Shown here one piece after another: positions 22,560-32,940 of a DNA stretch of 64,000 nucleotides. Origin of the DNA: Candidatus Dormiibacterota bacterium (GTDB lineage Bacteria; Vulcanimicrobiota; Vulcanimicrobiia; Vulcanimicrobiales; Vulcanimicrobiaceae); NCBI GenBank assembly GCA_035532835.1, contig DATKQG010000023.1, positions 62,001 through 126,000 of the forward strand. Reading direction: 5' to 3'. Below the pieces are notes generated by a model. That model was not told the DNA's origin. It saw nothing but the letters and a program-made list of their open reading frames with translations, and searched no databases. The stretch's first letter is position 1. Each line of letters begins with the position of its first letter. The position numbers were made by a program, and so were the translations under genes.

Positions 22560-22700
22560 ACGAAATCCCGAAAGCGTCGACACGAAACACCGTTGTAATT
22601 TGCATAGGCAAATCTTCCATGCTTCTACGCCGCCGGTTTCACGAGGCGGATAGCCGCCTCGCGAGCGCCTTCGGCTCCGCAGGCTGACCCGGCCCAACTC
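22560..22700 (-). ncRNA. Candidate omega RNA/right end of the IS607 element
   Basis: TnpB nucleases use a guide RNA made from the 3' end of tnpB and the adjoining transposon end. Here that stretch contains a perfect 8-bp hairpin CGAGGCGG-ATAG-CCGCCTCG (22642-22661) inside the last tnpB codons and a second hairpin ATTTGC-ATAG-GCAAAT (22598-22613) just beyond the stop. The boundaries, and the guide start at the element edge, cannot be set without comparing copies. Confidence 0.3.
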
Positions 22701-23827
22701 TCCGGGTATCGTGCGAGATTGCGGGCCGCATTCACATCGCGGTCATGGGCCGTGCCGCACGATAAACACACCCAGCTTCGCTCGCCGAGCGTCAGATGCT
22801 CATTCTTCACCTCGCACATCGAGCACAGTTTTGATGACGGGTACCAACGATCGGCAACAATGAGCGAAGCTCCAGACATCTTCACCTTATACTCAAGTTG
22901 TCGTCGAAACTCGAAGAATCCGATGTCCGCAATAGCGAGAGAGAGTTTCCGATTGGCGAGCATTCCCCGCACGTTGAGGTCTTCGATCACGATGATACCA
23001 AAACGCTGCACGAGGTCGGTCGTGAGTTTATGCAGCGCGTCTGCTCGGATATGGGCAATGCGTGCGTGAAGCCGCGCGAGCGTGGTTTTTGCTTTAGCGC
23101 GATTGCACGAACCCTTAACCTTCCGATGAAGAGCACGATTGAGTCGCTTGAGTTTGCCGAGGAGCCTCCGTAGCGGTTTCGGCGATTCAATCGGCGTCGA
23201 ACCATCCGAAAGCGTTGCGAGGTGAGCGATTCCAAGATCAATGCCAACGATCCCGCGCGCCGTTCCCTCCGCCGGAATATCCCCGACATCAACGATGAAT
23301 ACGCAGTACCACGCATCAGCCTGCCGTGAGATCGTCGCCGAGAGAATCGAGCCCGCGAAGCGCACCTCTTCGCGCATCCGCACCCACCCGATGCGGGAGA
23401 GCTTCACGCATTTGCCATCCACGCAAACGGCGTTCGGACGCGTCTTGTCGGTGCCGTTGTCGACGCGAAACGCCTCGTGTCGGCCTTTTTTCTTAAAGCG
23501 CGGCCTACGAATCCGTTGAGCTTTGAGCTGACCACGTTTGAACCTTGCGCAATCATCAAAGAAGTTCTTGTATGCTACACCGAGATGCTTGATCGCGTGT
23601 TGTACGACCGTCTTTGGGACCTCGTACATCCAGGGGAACTCGCTCGCCTTGCGTGCATTGAGCGATTTACGCAACGACGCTTCGGTTGGAGTGCCTCCGG
23701 CACGATACTCGCGCTGCCACTCCGCAAGCGCCCAATTATACGCAAAGCGAGCCGTTCCGCAGGCTCGGCGAAAGGTGCCTTCTTGTGCTGCCGTTGGTAC
23801 CAGGCGAATCCTGTGCGAGACGATCAT
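22625..23827 (-). CDS. tnpB: TnpB, RNA-guided RuvC-like nuclease of an IS607 element
   Basis: 400 residues, full length. N-terminal helix-turn region RIRLVPTAAQEGTFRRACGT is typical of OrfB. The three RuvC acidic residues are present: GIVGIDLGIAHLATL (Asp), IIVIEDLNVRGM (Glu) and DRDVNAARNLA (Asp). Between the last two, the zinc ribbon has CSMC and CLSC. TnpB cleaves DNA at the excision site using a guide RNA from the transposon end and helps retain the element; it is the ancestor type of Cas12. All key residues are intact. It overlaps tnpA as ATGA. Confidence 0.93.
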   Translation of the reverse strand: MIVSHRIRLVPTAAQEGTFRRACGTARFAYNWALAEWQREYRAGGTPTEASLRKSLNARKASEFPWMYEVPKTVVQHAIKHLGVAYKNFFDDCARFKRGQLKAQRIRRPRFKKKGRHEAFRVDNGTDKTRPNAVCVDGKCVKLSRIGWVRMREEVRFAGSILSATISRQADAWYCVFIVDVGDIPAEGTARGIVGIDLGIAHLATLSDGSTPIESPKPLRRLLGKLKRLNRALHRKVKGSCNRAKAKTTLARLHARIAHIRADALHKLTTDLVQRFGIIVIEDLNVRGMLANRKLSLAIADIGFFEFRRQLEYKVKMSGASLIVADRWYPSSKLCSMCEVKNEHLTLGERSWVCLSCGTAHDRDVNAARNLARYPESWAGSACGAEGAREAAIRLVKPAA

Positions 23828-24399
23828 TCAGGGGCTACCCGAGCCAATGCGCGCTCAATGCTGATCGCCCGATTGCGAGCCGAACGACGCCCGTACAACC
23901 GCGCGCAAAAACTCGTCAAAATCGCGATCATATCCTGCACCAGATCATCGTTCCTCTCGCCGGAATCCACCACAATGAGACGGCGCCCCGATGCGGCAAG
24001 CGCAGCTTCCAAATACTCCGAACCGAAACGAGCGAAGCGATCACGATGTTCGACCACGATTGCGCTAATACGCGCATCTGAAAGGAGCCGCAAGAGTTTA
24101 CGACGCTTACCGTTGAGCCCCGATCCGACTTCGGCAACCGCTTCAACGACATGGAGGTCGTGCGAGGCTGCGTAGGTTGCGAGTCGCGCAAGCTGCCGGT
24201 CGAGATCGTTGCGCTGATCGTGGCTGCTAACGCGAGCATAGAGCGCAATTGCCGAGGGTTTCTCGTCGATTGGGGCATCGACCAAGATCGTGCCGCCCGC
24301 AAGTTGCTTCCAAGGGACCGGCATCGCATCGTTCTTTACCCACCGCCAAGCGGTGGTATAGGAGATGCCTTGTCGCCTGGCCCAATCAGCGAGTTTCAC
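23824..24399 (-). CDS. tnpA: IS607 transposase TnpA (serine recombinase)
   Basis: 191 residues from the GTG chosen because it gives MKLADWARRQGISYTTAWRW, the normal N-terminus of IS607 TnpA with its MerR-like helix-turn-helix; a GTG three codons earlier adds nothing. The resolvase domain starts at IALYARVSSHDQRNDLDRQ with the catalytic serine in RVSS. Later elements are VEAVAEVGSGLNGKR and VVEHRDRFARFG, both typical of the family. IS607 TnpA carries out excision and insertion with little target specificity. Confidence 0.93.
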   Translation of the reverse strand: MKLADWARRQGISYTTAWRWVKNDAMPVPWKQLAGGTILVDAPIDEKPSAIALYARVSSHDQRNDLDRQLARLATYAASHDLHVVEAVAEVGSGLNGKRRKLLRLLSDARISAIVVEHRDRFARFGSEYLEAALAASGRRLIVVDSGERNDDLVQDMIAILTSFCARLYGRRSARNRAISIERALARVAPE

Positions 24400-24586
24400 A
24401 AATAACACTTACCATACGAACGTACGTTTGGCAATATATGCCTATCGATCGAGTAACAGCTCGTAGCCCCTTTCGACGATCGGGAATAAACGCGGATATC
24501 GAATGTGCCGCGAATTTTCGACCCAGGCGGAAGCCCTGCCTCCATCGCCCTGCCCCGCGAACCTCGCTCGCGAGCGACATGCGGAC

Positions 24587-25174
24587 TCAGGTTATAGATT
24601 CCCGCTCCTCGAGTTTTGCGAGGATGTCCGCGGTGGTGCCCACCTCGCCGATACGTGGGAAGATGCGTTCGATCGAGTTCTGGTGCGCTTCGGGGCGCGT
24701 GTCGGCCATTGCGTCCGCAGCAAAGGCGATATTGTAGCCATGCTCCCATGCGTTGCGAGCCGTCGATTCGACGCCGATGCTGGTGGAGATGCCGCACAGC
24801 ACGATCCCGGTAACGCCGCGACGGCGCAGTTGTAAATCGAGGTCCGTCCCGTAAAAGGCTCCCCATTGGCGCTTGGTCACCTGGATATCGCTCGGGGCAA
24901 GAGCCAGTTCATCGACGAACTCCGCGAATTCCGGCGTCGGTTTGGCCCCGGACGACGGCTCGTCGGTGCGCGTCTTGACCGCATCGCTGCGATCCGCCGC
25001 AACCGTCACGTGGACCAGCACTACGGGCAATCCGGCCGCGCGAAACGCCGCCGCGAGCCGAGCTGCGTTGGCCACGACGCCGGCCGAATCCGGATGCGTC
25101 GGCCTGGCGACGATACCGCGCTGCAGATCGATCGCCACAAGCGCGGTCTTCGGGTCGAGTTTGGTGATGGGCAT
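24587..25174 (-). CDS. Isochorismatase-family cysteine hydrolase
   Basis: 195 residues. ALVAIDLQ has the catalytic Asp16, TKRQWGAFYGT the lysine, and LCGISTSIGVESTARNA the cysteine nucleophile (about residue 127) with the preceding cis-peptide region. The fold is shared by nicotinamidases, isochorismatases and N-carbamoyl hydrolases, and the sequence does not decide between them. AAGGAG lies about 11 nt before the ATG. It is on the same strand as the GNAT-purN gene and follows it by 15 nt, so it probably belongs to the purM-purN transcription unit. Confidence 0.85.
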   Translation of the reverse strand: MPITKLDPKTALVAIDLQRGIVARPTHPDSAGVVANAARLAAAFRAAGLPVVLVHVTVAADRSDAVKTRTDEPSSGAKPTPEFAEFVDELALAPSDIQVTKRQWGAFYGTDLDLQLRRRGVTGIVLCGISTSIGVESTARNAWEHGYNIAFAADAMADTRPEAHQNSIERIFPRIGEVGTTADILAKLEERESIT

Positions 25175-25189
25175 GTCTTCCTTATCTCC

Positions 25190-26308
25190 TTACCGTTCGT
25201 AGATCCAGCGCATGATACCGCGCGGCACGAGGTCGTGCTCCAACGTATGCAAGCGCTCCAACACCTGGGCTTCCGATAAGCCTTCGATGTACAGCGGCAT
25301 ACGCACCAAAATCGGCCCGCTATCGGCCTGCGGCGTCACAACGTGCACGCTCACGCCGCTCCACGCGCTTCCCGCCGCGATCGCATCGCGCACCGCACGT
25401 GCACCGCGATACGCCGGGATGTACGACCCATCGGCAAGCCCTACCTCGTCACGCGTTGCATCGAACGGCAGGTACGCCGGATGCACGTTGATCGTATCCG
25501 GAAATGCGTCCAGAAATGAGGGGGCCAGCAGATGCATCCATCCGAGCAGCAACAGCAACTGCGGCCGTTCGTTCCCGATTGCCTCGAGTAAGCGTGCGTC
25601 GTACGCAGCCCGGGACTCGTTCGCTCGATCCCTGGCGACCACGCGGGCCGGAATTTTCGCCACACGCGCGCGCTCGATCGCAAACGCATCGGCCGTGTTG
25701 CAAACCAGCGCCGCGATTTCCAGCGGGAGCGTACCCGCACGCACCCGCTCGAGCACGGCTTGGAAGTTCGTCCCGCTACCCGACGCCATCACGATGGTGC
25801 GAATGCGCTCCTCACCACCGTCGCGAAGCGTGAAACGTTCGACGACCCGTGCGCCCACGCGCTCGACATAGTAGCGTTGCAAGCGCTCGTCACCCACCGC
25901 TGGAATGAGCGCGCGCCGATATCCGCGCGTGCGCAAGCTACAGAGAGCGGCTTGCAGCAGCGCGCCTCCGAGCGGTCCGCCGCGCTCGCTCGCATTCACG
26001 CCGAATGGCCCAAAAATGCCGACACCGGGTTCGGTGGCGACACAGCGTAGCCATCGATACCGCAGCCCCTCCGGCGCATACGTTGCGAATCCCACGGCGC
26101 GGCCATCGCGCAGCGCCGCCACGGTGCTCCCGGCGTAGGCTTCGCCGCTCCACGCGCCGCCGAACGTTTCATCGATCCACGCCAGGGTCGCATCCGCGGC
26201 GCCTCGCCGTTCATCGAACGTGCAACCCGAGCCGACGATGGCCGCAATCGCGTGCTCCTGCGCCGTCGCATCGAAACGTTCGTCCAGATCGACGATTAAG
26301 TTCACCAT
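25190..26308 (-). CDS. purN: GNAT-like domain fused to phosphoribosylglycinamide formyltransferase
   Basis: 372 residues, about twice the length of PurN. Residues ~1-168 look like a GNAT acyltransferase: AVGFATYAPEG strand, WLRCVATEPGVGIFGPFGV, GGALLQAALCSLRTRGYRRA for the acetyl-CoA region, and YYVERVGARVVERF at the end. Residues ~172-372 are PurN: MASGSGTNFQAVLERV, CNTADAFAIERA, TINVHPAYLP with the catalytic Asn-His, and SVHVVTPQADSGPIL with the Asp. PurN formylates GAR with 10-formyl-THF in step 3 of purine synthesis. The partner domain is unusual. The ATG at MVNLIV is preferred over a TTG three codons earlier. It follows purM by 15 nt. Confidence 0.88.
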   Translation of the reverse strand: MVNLIVDLDERFDATAQEHAIAAIVGSGCTFDERRGAADATLAWIDETFGGAWSGEAYAGSTVAALRDGRAVGFATYAPEGLRYRWLRCVATEPGVGIFGPFGVNASERGGPLGGALLQAALCSLRTRGYRRALIPAVGDERLQRYYVERVGARVVERFTLRDGGEERIRTIVMASGSGTNFQAVLERVRAGTLPLEIAALVCNTADAFAIERARVAKIPARVVARDRANESRAAYDARLLEAIGNERPQLLLLLGWMHLLAPSFLDAFPDTINVHPAYLPFDATRDEVGLADGSYIPAYRGARAVRDAIAAGSAWSGVSVHVVTPQADSGPILVRMPLYIEGLSEAQVLERLHTLEHDLVPRGIMRWIYER

Positions 26309-26323
26309 CGCTCGCAAGGGCGG

Positions 26324-27358
26324 CTATACGCGCGCTTCGTGCACGACCACGGATGGCTCGTCGCCACGCCGCGCTTCGATCCAGCCGGCGACGAACGCAC
26401 CCGGTGCAGCCGCCACGGCCTTCGCCGCATCGGCGAGCGGGACGACCAGCGTGTAGCCGACGCCCATGTTGAGCGTGCGATAACGCTCCTCGTGCGAAAG
26501 TTCGGCTCGTTTCACCAACTCTTGCATGATCGGCGGTACGCTCCAGCGCGTCTGCTCGAAGATCGCTTTCACGTTACTCGGCAGGGTGCGCGGCACGTTC
26601 TCGAGCAAGCCGCCGCCGGTGATGTGCGACATCGTCTTCACGTGCGCGACCGTTTGGATCGCGCGCACCGCATTGTAATACGACGGATGTTCGGCCAACA
26701 GCGCGTCGCCGTACGTCGTGCCGTCGAACGGCACGCCCCACTCTTCGCGTGCGATGAATTTGCGAGCGAGCGAGTAGCCGTTGGTATGCAATCCCACCGC
26801 CGGTAGCGCGACGATCGCATCGCCGGCTTCCACCGTTTCCGGTTTGGGGAGCGCCGCGATCTCAACGGTGCCGACGATCGTTCCGGCCAAATCGAAATGC
26901 CCCGGCGCGTAGAGGCCCGGCATCTCCGCCGTCTCTCCGCCTAACAGCGCGCACATGTGCGCGCGGCATGCGCCGGCGCACCCCGCGACCACCGCGGCGG
27001 CGACCGCCGGATCGAGTTTCCCGACCGCGAGATAATCGAGGAAAAACAGCGGCGTGGCATTCACTACCAAAATATCGTTGACGCAGTGATTCACCAGGTC
27101 GCGGCCGACGCCGTCGTAGCGCTCCAATTCGGCCGCAATAAGAATCTTCGTCCCGACCCCGTCGGCCGAGGCGACCAGGGCCCGATCGCCGCCCCCGGGC
27201 ATGCGCATGACGCCGCCAAAGCCGCCGATCGCGTCCATCTGGTCGGGATGACGCCACGCGCCGAGGACGCCCTTATACCGGGCAACGGCTTCGTTACCCG
27301 CGGCGATATCGACGCCCGCCTTCGCGTATGCATCCAGGTTCCGACTTTGGTCGCTCAC
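26324..27358 (-). CDS. purM: Phosphoribosylformylglycinamidine cyclo-ligase (AIR synthetase)
   Basis: 344 residues from the GTG chosen here, matching the usual ~345. That GTG has GGGAGG 4-5 nt upstream; an ATG 22 codons earlier lacks a ribosome-binding site and adds a Cys-rich stretch foreign to the family. DAYAKAGVDIAAGNEAV is the normal N-terminus. SADGVGTKILIA, DLVNHCVNDILVVNATPLFF and GGETAEMPGLY are the nucleotide and substrate segments, and HITGGGLLENVPR is the C-terminal signature. It closes the imidazole ring at step 5. Confidence 0.95.
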   Translation of the reverse strand: MSDQSRNLDAYAKAGVDIAAGNEAVARYKGVLGAWRHPDQMDAIGGFGGVMRMPGGGDRALVASADGVGTKILIAAELERYDGVGRDLVNHCVNDILVVNATPLFFLDYLAVGKLDPAVAAAVVAGCAGACRAHMCALLGGETAEMPGLYAPGHFDLAGTIVGTVEIAALPKPETVEAGDAIVALPAVGLHTNGYSLARKFIAREEWGVPFDGTTYGDALLAEHPSYYNAVRAIQTVAHVKTMSHITGGGLLENVPRTLPSNVKAIFEQTRWSVPPIMQELVKRAELSHEERYRTLNMGVGYTLVVPLADAAKAVAAAPGAFVAGWIEARRGDEPSVVVHEARV

Positions 27359-27463
27359 TATGCCTCCCGCGCAGGGCCGTCCAGGCGCCGCGCACGAACA
27401 ATCATCGAAGACGTTCTTCGCCATCTTCGTGGCGCTCTAGTTCACCCAAGCGAAAGGCTGACC

Positions 27464-30664: not shown

Positions 30665-31573
30665 TTACACTCGCTGTGAAGCCTGCTCGGCGATTTCCTC
30701 GATGTGGCGCGCATCCGTCCCGCAACAGCCACCCAAAACCGTCAGCCCAAACTCGTGCGCGCACGCCCATAGATCGCGTGCGAATACCTGCGGCTCGGCT
30801 TGCTCCAACCGTGCGCCCTCTTCGAGTTCCTGCGGCGGCAACGGCGAGCCGTTGGCCTTCAGGCCGACGACGCGATGCGCGAGATCCGGCGCGGCGCGAA
30901 AGAGTGCGGCGAGCGCCGTTGCGGCGTTGGTCGGATAGATGCAGCCCAGCATATAGTGCCACGGCCGTCGGCTTGGATCGGCATCGAGGCGTTCGATAGC
31001 GGTTGCCAACGGCGTACCGTCCATCATCGTTCCATCCGGGCGTATCATCGGCGCGACCGCGAACGGCAGCCGCGTCTGCGCCATTGCCGCGCAGGCGCCG
31101 AGCAACGCATCGCAACTCGGAAACGTCGCCGCGTACAAAATATCGACGCCTGCATCCGCCAGCGCCACCGCCTGCTCGCGATGGTACGCTTCCGCTTCGA
31201 CGGCTCCGAGCGCATGGGTGGGGTCGTAACCATCGGTCGCCGGGCCGATCACGCCGGCCACGATCGCGCGTGCGCCGGTTTGGGCGATCACGTCGCGAAT
31301 GAGCGCGACGGCTTCGCGATTGTACCGCGTAACGTCGGTAGTCCAGTTTTGGCTCGCGCGCCAGGTCGGCGTGCCGAGCTGGATCGGCAGATCGAACCGC
31401 GCGGCGATCTCCGCGTAGCTGCGATAGATCTGCGTGAGGATCGCGCGCCCCTGCGCGTCGTCCAGCAATTCGAACGAGCAAAAGTCGCGCAACGAGCGAT
31501 GAAACTCATAGATGATGCGCGTCTCGATGCCGCCGTCGGTGAGCACCAACGGCTCTCTATAGAGGGTGATCAA
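30665..31573 (-). CDS. Homocysteine S-methyltransferase family protein
   Basis: 302 residues, TIM-barrel of the Hcy-binding family. LTDGGIETRIIYEF is the N-terminal motif, GPATDGY the mid-barrel loop, and LGCIYPTNA with a later GGCCGTDARHI supplies the three zinc-ligand cysteines. It probably methylates homocysteine or a related thiol using S-methylmethionine or SAM; the exact donor is not decided. It could complete the Met route whose earlier steps are encoded at 16.6-20 kb. The start is TTG, overlapping the purF stop as TTGA, so it is co-translated with purF. Confidence 0.88.
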   Translation of the reverse strand: MITLYREPLVLTDGGIETRIIYEFHRSLRDFCSFELLDDAQGRAILTQIYRSYAEIAARFDLPIQLGTPTWRASQNWTTDVTRYNREAVALIRDVIAQTGARAIVAGVIGPATDGYDPTHALGAVEAEAYHREQAVALADAGVDILYAATFPSCDALLGACAAMAQTRLPFAVAPMIRPDGTMMDGTPLATAIERLDADPSRRPWHYMLGCIYPTNAATALAALFRAAPDLAHRVVGLKANGSPLPPQELEEGARLEQAEPQVFARDLWACAHEFGLTVLGGCCGTDARHIEEIAEQASQRV

Positions 31574-32940
31574 CCAACGAGTTCGCGGGTTTCATGCGCG
31601 GCCGGCGCATTCGGATAGGTGCCGGTCAAGCAGCCCAGGCACATTTCGCCGTGCTCGCGTCCGGTCGAAGCCACCAACCCGGACAAGCTGAGGTAGCCGA
31701 GCGAATCGGCGCCCGTCTTCTCGCGAATCTGTTCGATCGTATAATTCGCGGCAATCAACTCGTCGTACGTCGCCATATCGACGCCGAGGTAACAGGGGTG
31801 TTTGATCGGCGGCGAGGTGATGCGCAGATGCACTTCTTTCGCACCCGACTCGCGCAGCAGCGCTACGATGCGGGGCGTTGTCGTACCGCGCACGATCGAA
31901 TCGTCCACCACGATCACGCGTTGTCCGCGCAGGTTCTCCACGACGGGATTGAACTTCAACTGCACGCCTCGCGAGCGCATCTTCTGATCCGGACTGATGA
32001 ACGTTCGCCCGATGTAGCGGTTTTTGATGAGCCCTTCAACGTACGGCAGATCGGCCTCCGCCGCGTAACCGATGCCGCCGGGGACGGCCGAATCCGGCAC
32101 CGCCATCACCACATCCGCTTCTACCGGATGCTCCTTGGCGAGTTGCCGGCCCATCGCGTAGCGCGCCATGTAAATCGAGCGACCGTTCAGCGTCGAGTCC
32201 GGCCGCGCGAAATAGATGTATTCGAACATGCACAGCGCCGGTTTTGCCGTCTGGTTGGGGCCGCGATGCGATTCCATCCCGGCCGCGGTAATGCGAATCA
32301 CTTCGCCCGCTTCGATCTCGCGCACGTACTGCGCGCCGACCGTGGCAAGCGCGCACGATTCCGACGCGACGACGTAGCCGCCGTCTCCGTACGTTCCCAA
32401 GCAGAGCGGACGCACGCCCCACGGATCGCGAAACGCATACAACTCATCTTTGGTGATGAGGACGACCGAGTACGCGCCTTGCGCAACGCCGAGAACGTGT
32501 TGGATGCGCTCGAGCATCGATCCCGGCGCCTCGACTAAGACCTTGGCCATCACTTCGGAGTCGGAGCTGGCGAGCAAGGTGGTGGTCGGTGCGAGCGACT
32601 CGCGCAAATCGTCGGTGTTGGTGAGGTTGCCGTTGTGCACGAATGCGAAATCGCCGATCTCGGTTCGCTCGAGCAGCGGCTGGGCGTTGACGACCATCGA
32701 AGAACCGGTCGTCGAGTACCGGGTATGGCCGACGGCGATATGTCCCGAGAGCGCCCCGAGGCTCTCCTCGTCGAAGATCGCGCCGATCAGGCCCATCTCC
32801 TTATGCGAGCGAATCGTCCCGCCGTCGGCGGCGGCGATGCCGGCCGACTCTTGCCCGCGGTGCTGTAACGCGTACAACGCAAAGTAGGCAAGACGCGCGG
32901 CCTCACGGCCCGGCGCATAGACTCCCGATATCCCGCACAT
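31570..32940 (-). CDS. purF: Amidophosphoribosyltransferase
   Basis: 456 residues. It catalyses the first committed step of purine synthesis, PRPP to phosphoribosylamine. Cys2 (MCGISGVY) is the glutaminase nucleophile, LQHRGQESAGIA follows, and VIVVDDSIVRGTTTPR is the PRPP loop. Cysteines in CMFEYIYF, HPCYLG and CLGCLTGTYP match the 4Fe-4S ligands of the Bacillus-type enzyme, so an oxygen-sensitive cluster is likely. It stands apart from the main pur run, coupled to the homocysteine methyltransferase gene. Confidence 0.95.
   Translation of the reverse strand: MCGISGVYAPGREAARLAYFALYALQHRGQESAGIAAADGGTIRSHKEMGLIGAIFDEESLGALSGHIAVGHTRYSTTGSSMVVNAQPLLERTEIGDFAFVHNGNLTNTDDLRESLAPTTTLLASSDSEVMAKVLVEAPGSMLERIQHVLGVAQGAYSVVLITKDELYAFRDPWGVRPLCLGTYGDGGYVVASESCALATVGAQYVREIEAGEVIRITAAGMESHRGPNQTAKPALCMFEYIYFARPDSTLNGRSIYMARYAMGRQLAKEHPVEADVVMAVPDSAVPGGIGYAAEADLPYVEGLIKNRYIGRTFISPDQKMRSRGVQLKFNPVVENLRGQRVIVVDDSIVRGTTTPRIVALLRESGAKEVHLRITSPPIKHPCYLGVDMATYDELIAANYTIEQIREKTGADSLGYLSLSGLVASTGREHGEMCLGCLTGTYPNAPAAHETRELVG

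Follow-up and report, generated by a model that had tools for sequence, protein, structure and literature searches.

The locus analyzed here raises the question of why an acetyltransferase of the GNAT type is found in one polypeptide with the purine synthesis enzyme PurN. It lies in a stretch of 64,000 nucleotides from contig DATKQG010000023.1 (hereafter called the window), and a sequence-only reading had proposed a GNAT-like acyltransferase fused to PurN at 25190-26308 without giving a strand. Pfam matches and a structural model bear out this proposal, and the gene reads on the minus strand, with stops being present in plus-strand frame 1 of the same interval. The features of the locus are the following:

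25190..26308, minus strand: GNAT-PurN fusion gene, 372 amino acids, from the ATG at 26308 to the stop at 25190
25820..26308, minus strand: predicted N-terminal GNAT domain, residues 1-163 (PF00583, model, PDB neighbors, conservation, alignment to GlmA)
25193..25804, minus strand: PurN domain, residues 169-372 (PF00551, matches to PurN structures in the PDB, N274/H276/D329 triad)
26324..27424, minus strand: purM, coding for AIR synthase (AIRS and AIRS_C matches, adjacency across relatives)
24587..25174, minus strand: gene for an isochorismatase-fold hydrolase, downstream of the fusion gene (PF00857)

The purM gene is located directly upstream of the fusion gene, with 15 nt between its stop and the fusion ATG. 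An alternative TTG start is present at 26317, giving an open frame of 375 residues (25190..26317), and the ATG at 26308 lies near the start point of the stand-alone homologues. Production of a separate PurN from an internal start was considered and rejected, as the in-frame Met174 is located within the first PurN strand (residues 169-175) and is often a Leu in relatives. Several further genes were recorded in the vicinity. The region 22625-24408 (minus strand) codes for a TnpB (OrfB_IS605) whose TNB domain is Cas12f1-like, and for a small serine resolvase whose frame shares 4 bases with it. The two represent a mobile element, presumably of the IS607 type, and the fusion gene is about 0.8 kb away. 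The purF gene (31570-32940, minus strand) is found about 4 kb from purM, and its end is overlapped by 4 bases by the frame of a homocysteine S-methyltransferase gene (30665-31573, minus strand). No match for methionyl-tRNA formyltransferase (Fmt) besides PurN itself was found in the genome of the window (G000). Because Fmt is present in the genus mate G001 and scores above the family cut-off in 48 of 60 genomes, its absence is probably due to an assembly gap, and we set it aside as an oddity linked to the fusion.

The C-terminal part of the protein matches Formyl_trans_N (PF00551) with 110.6 bits at a cut-off of 26.1, and GAR transformylases occupy the top 22 rows of a Foldseek search with the whole model. 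The residues N274, H276 and D329, which we take to be the catalytic Asn/His/Asp triad by comparison with E. coli PurN, are each invariant in all 81 scored rows of the alignment. The NCBIfam model for PurN, TIGR00639, was matched with 133.4 bits, which is below its threshold of 150.1, an annotation rule rather than a biochemical feature. This lower score results from an insert of about 17 residues after the NVHPAYLP segment (relative to PDB 3av3), which splits the family match into two stretches. Because the stand-alone PurN proteins of the sister family and the class align to the PurN of the window over spans of nearly equal length, they must contain the insert as well, so that its presence is independent of the fusion. 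We therefore call the domain PurN for its fold, its triad and its linkage to purM, despite the sub-threshold score.

Residues 1-163 are predicted to fold as a GNAT acetyltransferase. In a Pfam scan of the 375-residue frame, Acetyltransf_1 (PF00583) was matched at residues 61-155 with 24.8 bits vs. a cut-off of 20.7, and AlphaFold2 modeling from five sequences yielded a mean pLDDT of 80.5 and a pTM of 0.70 for the whole protein, and values of 86.6 and 0.85 for the GNAT half alone. The domain search and structure prediction suggested by the sequence-only reading thus agree, and its reservation that the N-terminal part might not be a GNAT was answered by the opposite result, as the best structural neighbors in the PDB are GNATs. 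The closest is GlmA (5kf2) with a Z score of 13.8 and an rmsd of 4.2 over 152 aligned residues, followed by RmNag (4zm6) with a Z score of 13.3 and the next other protein with 12.2; by Foldseek alone, 4zm6 ranks first for this half. Sequence-profile matches of the domain are weak, the E values being 3e-4 for mycothiol synthase and 4e-4 for GlmA. The same reading had described a full acetyl-CoA-type domain preceding PurN with little linker, which fits the model: the final strand of the GNAT runs up to residue 160 and that of PurN begins with its first strand at 169, leaving a linker of less than 10 residues.

As signature residues of the GNAT domain we used R109 and G114 of the CoA loop, Y147, P101, W53 and E56, with W53 and E56 being picked by conservation alone. 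They are kept in most of the 82 fused rows of the alignment (W53 and E56 in 76 each, P101 in 81, R109 and G114 in 79 each, and Y147 in 77), and each occurs in at least 13 of the 14 stand-alone rows. All six are retained together in 71 of the 82 fused rows. In the acetyl-CoA loop, whose motif in GNATs we take to be R/Q-x-x-G-x-G/A, the third position (112) is Gly in just 48 of the 82 fused rows and Pro in the protein of the window. Specific for the fused clade are an insert of three residues in the loop ahead of Y147 and the residues D46 and S54.

The fusion is kept throughout one family, which settles another point that the initial reading had listed for checking. In the family of the window (Candidatus Eremiobacterota), 90 of 99 genomes including its own contain a match to the fusion protein and nine do not; of the matching genomes, G128 carries PurN only and G082 a weak match only. 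Partial matches caused by contig ends were observed in several genomes, e.g., G072, G077, G078, G086 and G087. We read 88 fused frames, of which 82 are distinct, with L023, L120 and L121 being cut at contig ends. One of the frames comes from the single-contig genome G008. A sequencing error or an artificial join of two genes in the assembly, also raised initially, is therefore ruled out by the 82 distinct fused frames, and with nothing found in its favor, we regard the probability of such an artefact as practically nil. Among the five named records, four are metagenome genomes of Candidatus Eremiobacterota, and the remaining one, a Lachnospiraceae genome, matches PurN weakly. No relevant literature on such a fusion was recognized within one open-access library.

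Within the phylum, to which the survey was confined, the relatives show a different arrangement. The sister family and the class are represented by 18 genomes, in all of which the match to PurN leaves out the GNAT, and 14 of them contain a separate GNAT gene on another contig; no GNAT was found in the remaining four (G042, G046, G052 and G054). No genome read from the family of the window contains GNAT and PurN as separate genes, G076 and G078 being broken by contig ends. In a GNAT tree of 102 rows, all 82 fused domains are located on one side of a branch (support 99/90) and 20 stand-alone copies on the other; this tree has no outside root, so the designation as one clade depends on the stand-alone copies being ancestral. 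The gap between purM and the PurN match amounts to 18-144 nt in the nine loci with a stand-alone PurN that we fetched from the sister family and the class, and to 476-920 nt in the fused loci which reach purM, mostly about 500 nt, the size of the GNAT, with 826-920 nt in L016, L017, L018 and L036. Nine fused loci, each on a short piece of 1.3-1.8 kb, end before purM. In other families of the phylum, no purM match was found in the stretch at five stand-alone PurN loci (L062, L067 and L126-L128). The adjacency of purM and purN is thus older than the fusion in the class, and the GNAT was inserted between them. The distribution is most simply explained by one fusion event at the base of the family. 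We conclude that the fusion is real and old, and that it is a new architecture built of known parts.

Both halves of the protein are under equal purifying selection. The dN/dS ratios of 19 of 20 chosen close pairs, calculated after Nei-Gojobori, have a median of 0.14 for the GNAT and 0.14 for the PurN domain, with ranges of 0.06-0.58 and 0.06-0.22, respectively; the pair with the value of 0.58 has a dS of only 0.05. At least one signature residue is missing in 11 of the 82 fused rows: five in G022, three each in G006 and G103, two each in G023, G007, G014 and G027, and one each in G032, G017 and G126, while L120 (G127) lacks two positions by truncation at a contig end alone. The PurN triads are intact in the rows with eroded GNAT domains. 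In G128, no GNAT is present at purN, only 4 nt separate the purM stop from the first possible purN start, and this genome, which is 73% complete, gave no further match to the GNAT. The PurN of G128 nests within the fused clade beside G124 (86/95), inside a clade supported by 100/98, and we read this as a clean loss of the GNAT with PurN being kept. The GNAT is thus usually intact, but because it has decayed in a few species and has been lost cleanly in one, PurN does not need it.

These 11 rows and the loss in G128 would also be expected if the fusion had been accidental and nearly neutral, with the GNAT retaining its old amino-sugar job uncoupled from purN and being attached to it simply through an in-frame insertion. 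We consider this unlikely, given that fused frames occur in 82 of 99 family genomes, that the dN/dS of the GNAT equals that of PurN in the pairs tested, and that the two domains were not met as separate genes in the family genomes read. The persistence of the domain in G022 and G023 despite lost signature residues, the variation at position 112 and the very short linker would alternatively suit a GNAT without catalytic activity that serves PurN as an acetyl-CoA sensor or as a structural or oligomerization module. Such a role appears highly improbable to us, because Y147, W53 and E56 are conserved in the fused proteins as in the stand-alone ones, and a pure sensor or scaffold would have no obvious need for these residues.

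Clues to the reaction of the GNAT come from its relatives. While the GNAT of the window gave no match when used as a query against a plasmid collection, the stand-alone Eremiobacterota GNAT L041 matched 151 plasmid records, 127 of them from Rhizobium and all at less than 60% identity. We fetched seven of these plasmid regions, of which three carry no annotation; in all four annotated regions the GNAT gene is directly followed by a gene for a β-N-acetylhexosaminidase or a GH3 enzyme, and ABC or MFS transporters are encoded nearby (selected genes were checked against Pfam). The rhizobial group shows 35-36% identity to the domain of the window, and a rhizobial GNAT query recovers the fused domain in the genome of the window at 1.2e-7. 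With fused and stand-alone copies combined, this query has matches in 75 of 148 phylum genomes. According to PMC4680927, bacterial glucosamine N-acetyltransferases acetylate non-acetylated sugars ahead of their cleavage by N-acetylglucosaminidase, and the rhizobial neighborhoods fit this statement. Together with the predicted fold, this suggests that the ancestor of the GNAT was an amino-sugar N-acetyltransferase.

In the class, the neighborhoods of the stand-alone copies name no single pathway. In the sister family, the GNAT gene overlaps an SBP_bac_5 gene (L044, checked against Pfam), and in the class it adjoins an MFS gene in L038 (checked against Pfam), L039 and L040; we count these neighbors in favor of the amino-sugar lineage. 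Otherwise the neighbors identified by Pfam in the class vary between peptidase S13, AstE/AspA-like, GH125, ETF-QO and cation efflux proteins, with SecDF and AroA being recognized by eye. We also noted a conserved frame of 148-194 residues behind the stand-alone GNAT at seven loci of the class, ahead of the AstE/AspA-like and GH125 genes (L041 6625-7077, L049 5233-5679, L038, L039, L040, L046 and L047); the copy of L041 has no Pfam match. In another family of the phylum, L122, L123, L125 and L129 contain frames of 283-372 amino acids with a C-terminal GNAT of the same group, in which IPWVGP-FY replaces IPAVG. These are possibly tandem GNATs like GlmA.

A GH3 match was found in the window's genome on another contig (C104) without linkage to the fusion gene, and GH20 had no match in this genome but turned up in 9 of 60 relatives. 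GH3 is absent from 5 of the 99 family genomes. Of these, G022 has lost five signature residues, none are missing in G034 and G092, all four readable ones are retained in G127, and the GNAT of G086 falls outside the alignment; GH3 is present in G023, which has lost two residues, and in G128, which has lost the GNAT. Across the 99 family genomes, there is no consistent pattern between the presence of GH3 and the integrity of the GNAT. Since the GH3 and GH20 results are negative, an amino-sugar role is inferred from the fold and the distant neighborhoods. It counts against this reading that the links to hexosaminidases are seen in distant relatives and not at the fusion locus, that the identity to the rhizobial group is only 35-36%, that the GNAT of the window had no direct plasmid match, and that position 112 of the CoA loop varies.

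The fused GNAT might alternatively act on the purine pathway itself by acetylating GAR, 5-phosphoribosylamine (PRA) or a pathway protein, thus providing an acetyl-CoA-dependent valve on purine synthesis. The sequence-only reading had suggested a role of this sort, namely modification of a purine intermediate or a protein, or a regulatory input from acetyl-CoA. Acetylation of a purine intermediate or control of PurN by acetyl-CoA is possible: the fusion to PurN and the position between purM and purN are maintained across the family, the nearest folds act on sugar amines, and the insert before Y147, D46 and S54 are changes near the active site that are specific for the fused proteins. GAR and PRA are sugar amines. 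An obligatory role of the GNAT in purine synthesis is nevertheless argued against by the occurrence of PurN alone in relatives, the clean loss of the whole domain in G128 and the loss of signature residues in several species, and no residue or structure points to binding of GAR by the GNAT. We therefore regard a valve of this kind as rather improbable. Its most specific form, in which a single polypeptide would choose between formylation and N-acetylation of the same intermediate at high acetyl-CoA levels, or would acetylate a pathway protein, is even a little less probable in our view. If true, an acetylation valve would tie carbon status to nucleotide synthesis.

We favor, at slightly better than even confidence, a single chain that carries two separable enzymes and has them expressed together, with the GNAT being of the amino-sugar type with a shifted acceptor. 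The sequences support that a separate GNAT gene settled between purM and purN and was joined in frame with the 5' end of purN. The C-terminal half would convert GAR and 10-formyl-tetrahydrofolate to formyl-GAR like PurN elsewhere, and the N-terminal half would independently acetylate the amine of a small sugar-like molecule, with acetyl-CoA as the donor. It would have this role from a glucosaminide N-acetyltransferase lineage, with a shift of the acceptor. The main effect of the fusion would then be the fixed co-expression with the purM-purN unit and not a shared reaction. An acetyltransferase has here become part of one protein with an enzyme from a near-universal pathway, and the combination was apparently fixed a single time and retained family-wide. 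The locus also offers a natural experiment, since the same GNAT occurs unfused in the sister family and the class, is eroded in a few species and is lost in one. Because fused, unfused, eroded and lost versions exist, the function of this acetyltransferase group and any link of amino-sugar or acetyl-CoA metabolism to purine synthesis are testable by comparison.

Compared to known systems, the C-terminal half corresponds to ordinary PurN (PF00551, TIGR00639; e.g., PDB 3av3 and 1cde) in its fold, the N/H/D triad and the place right after purM, and the protein of the window differs by the additional N-terminal GNAT and the insert of about 17 residues. The best structural match of the GNAT over the whole domain is the C-terminal GNAT of the Clostridium acetobutylicum protein of 5kf1, 5kf2 and 5kga, which we take to be GlmA (glucosamine/glucosaminide N-acetyltransferase). 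Common to both are the GP-G strand and a Tyr, and the R-x-x-G-x-G loop of GlmA has a counterpart with R109 and G114 but with Pro at position 112. Tyr297 of GlmA, presumably the catalytic residue and mutated in 5kgh, corresponds to Y147, which 77 of the 82 fused rows and 13 of the 14 stand-alone rows retain. However, GlmA is a tandem GNAT, whereas that of the window is a single domain with 18% identity, and Asp287 and Trp288 of GlmA are replaced by Pro136 and Ala137. In the 82 fused rows, position 136 is occupied by Pro (65), Ala (11), Gly (5) or Thr (1), and the position of Trp288 is mostly Ala. Asp287, which was mutated in 5kga, aligns with Asp834 of RmNag, a sugar-pocket residue according to PMC4680927. 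Because Asp287 is replaced, the acceptor may be a molecule other than glucosamine itself. From the replacements at the GlmA site and the changes specific for the fused proteins, we infer an ancestor of the amino-sugar type with an altered acceptor and have not filed the domain as GlmA.

The C-terminal region of RmNag (4zm6; PMC4680927) contains a GNAT of the same kind that is likewise fused to a metabolic enzyme, but its partner is a GH3 β-N-acetylglucosaminidase instead of PurN, and its Asp834 is not kept in the GNAT of the window. The plasmid-encoded GNATs of Rhizobium, Shinella and Roseateles (e.g., NZ_CP030764.1) share the W-x-x-E, FGP-GV and VG..FY motifs with the fused domain, but are encoded by stand-alone genes in clusters with a hexosaminidase and ABC or MFS transporters. 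Finally, PurN is also fused to other polypeptides in the eukaryotic trifunctional GARS-AIRS-GART enzymes; the partners there are enzymes of the purine pathway, whereas the partner found here is an acetyltransferase.
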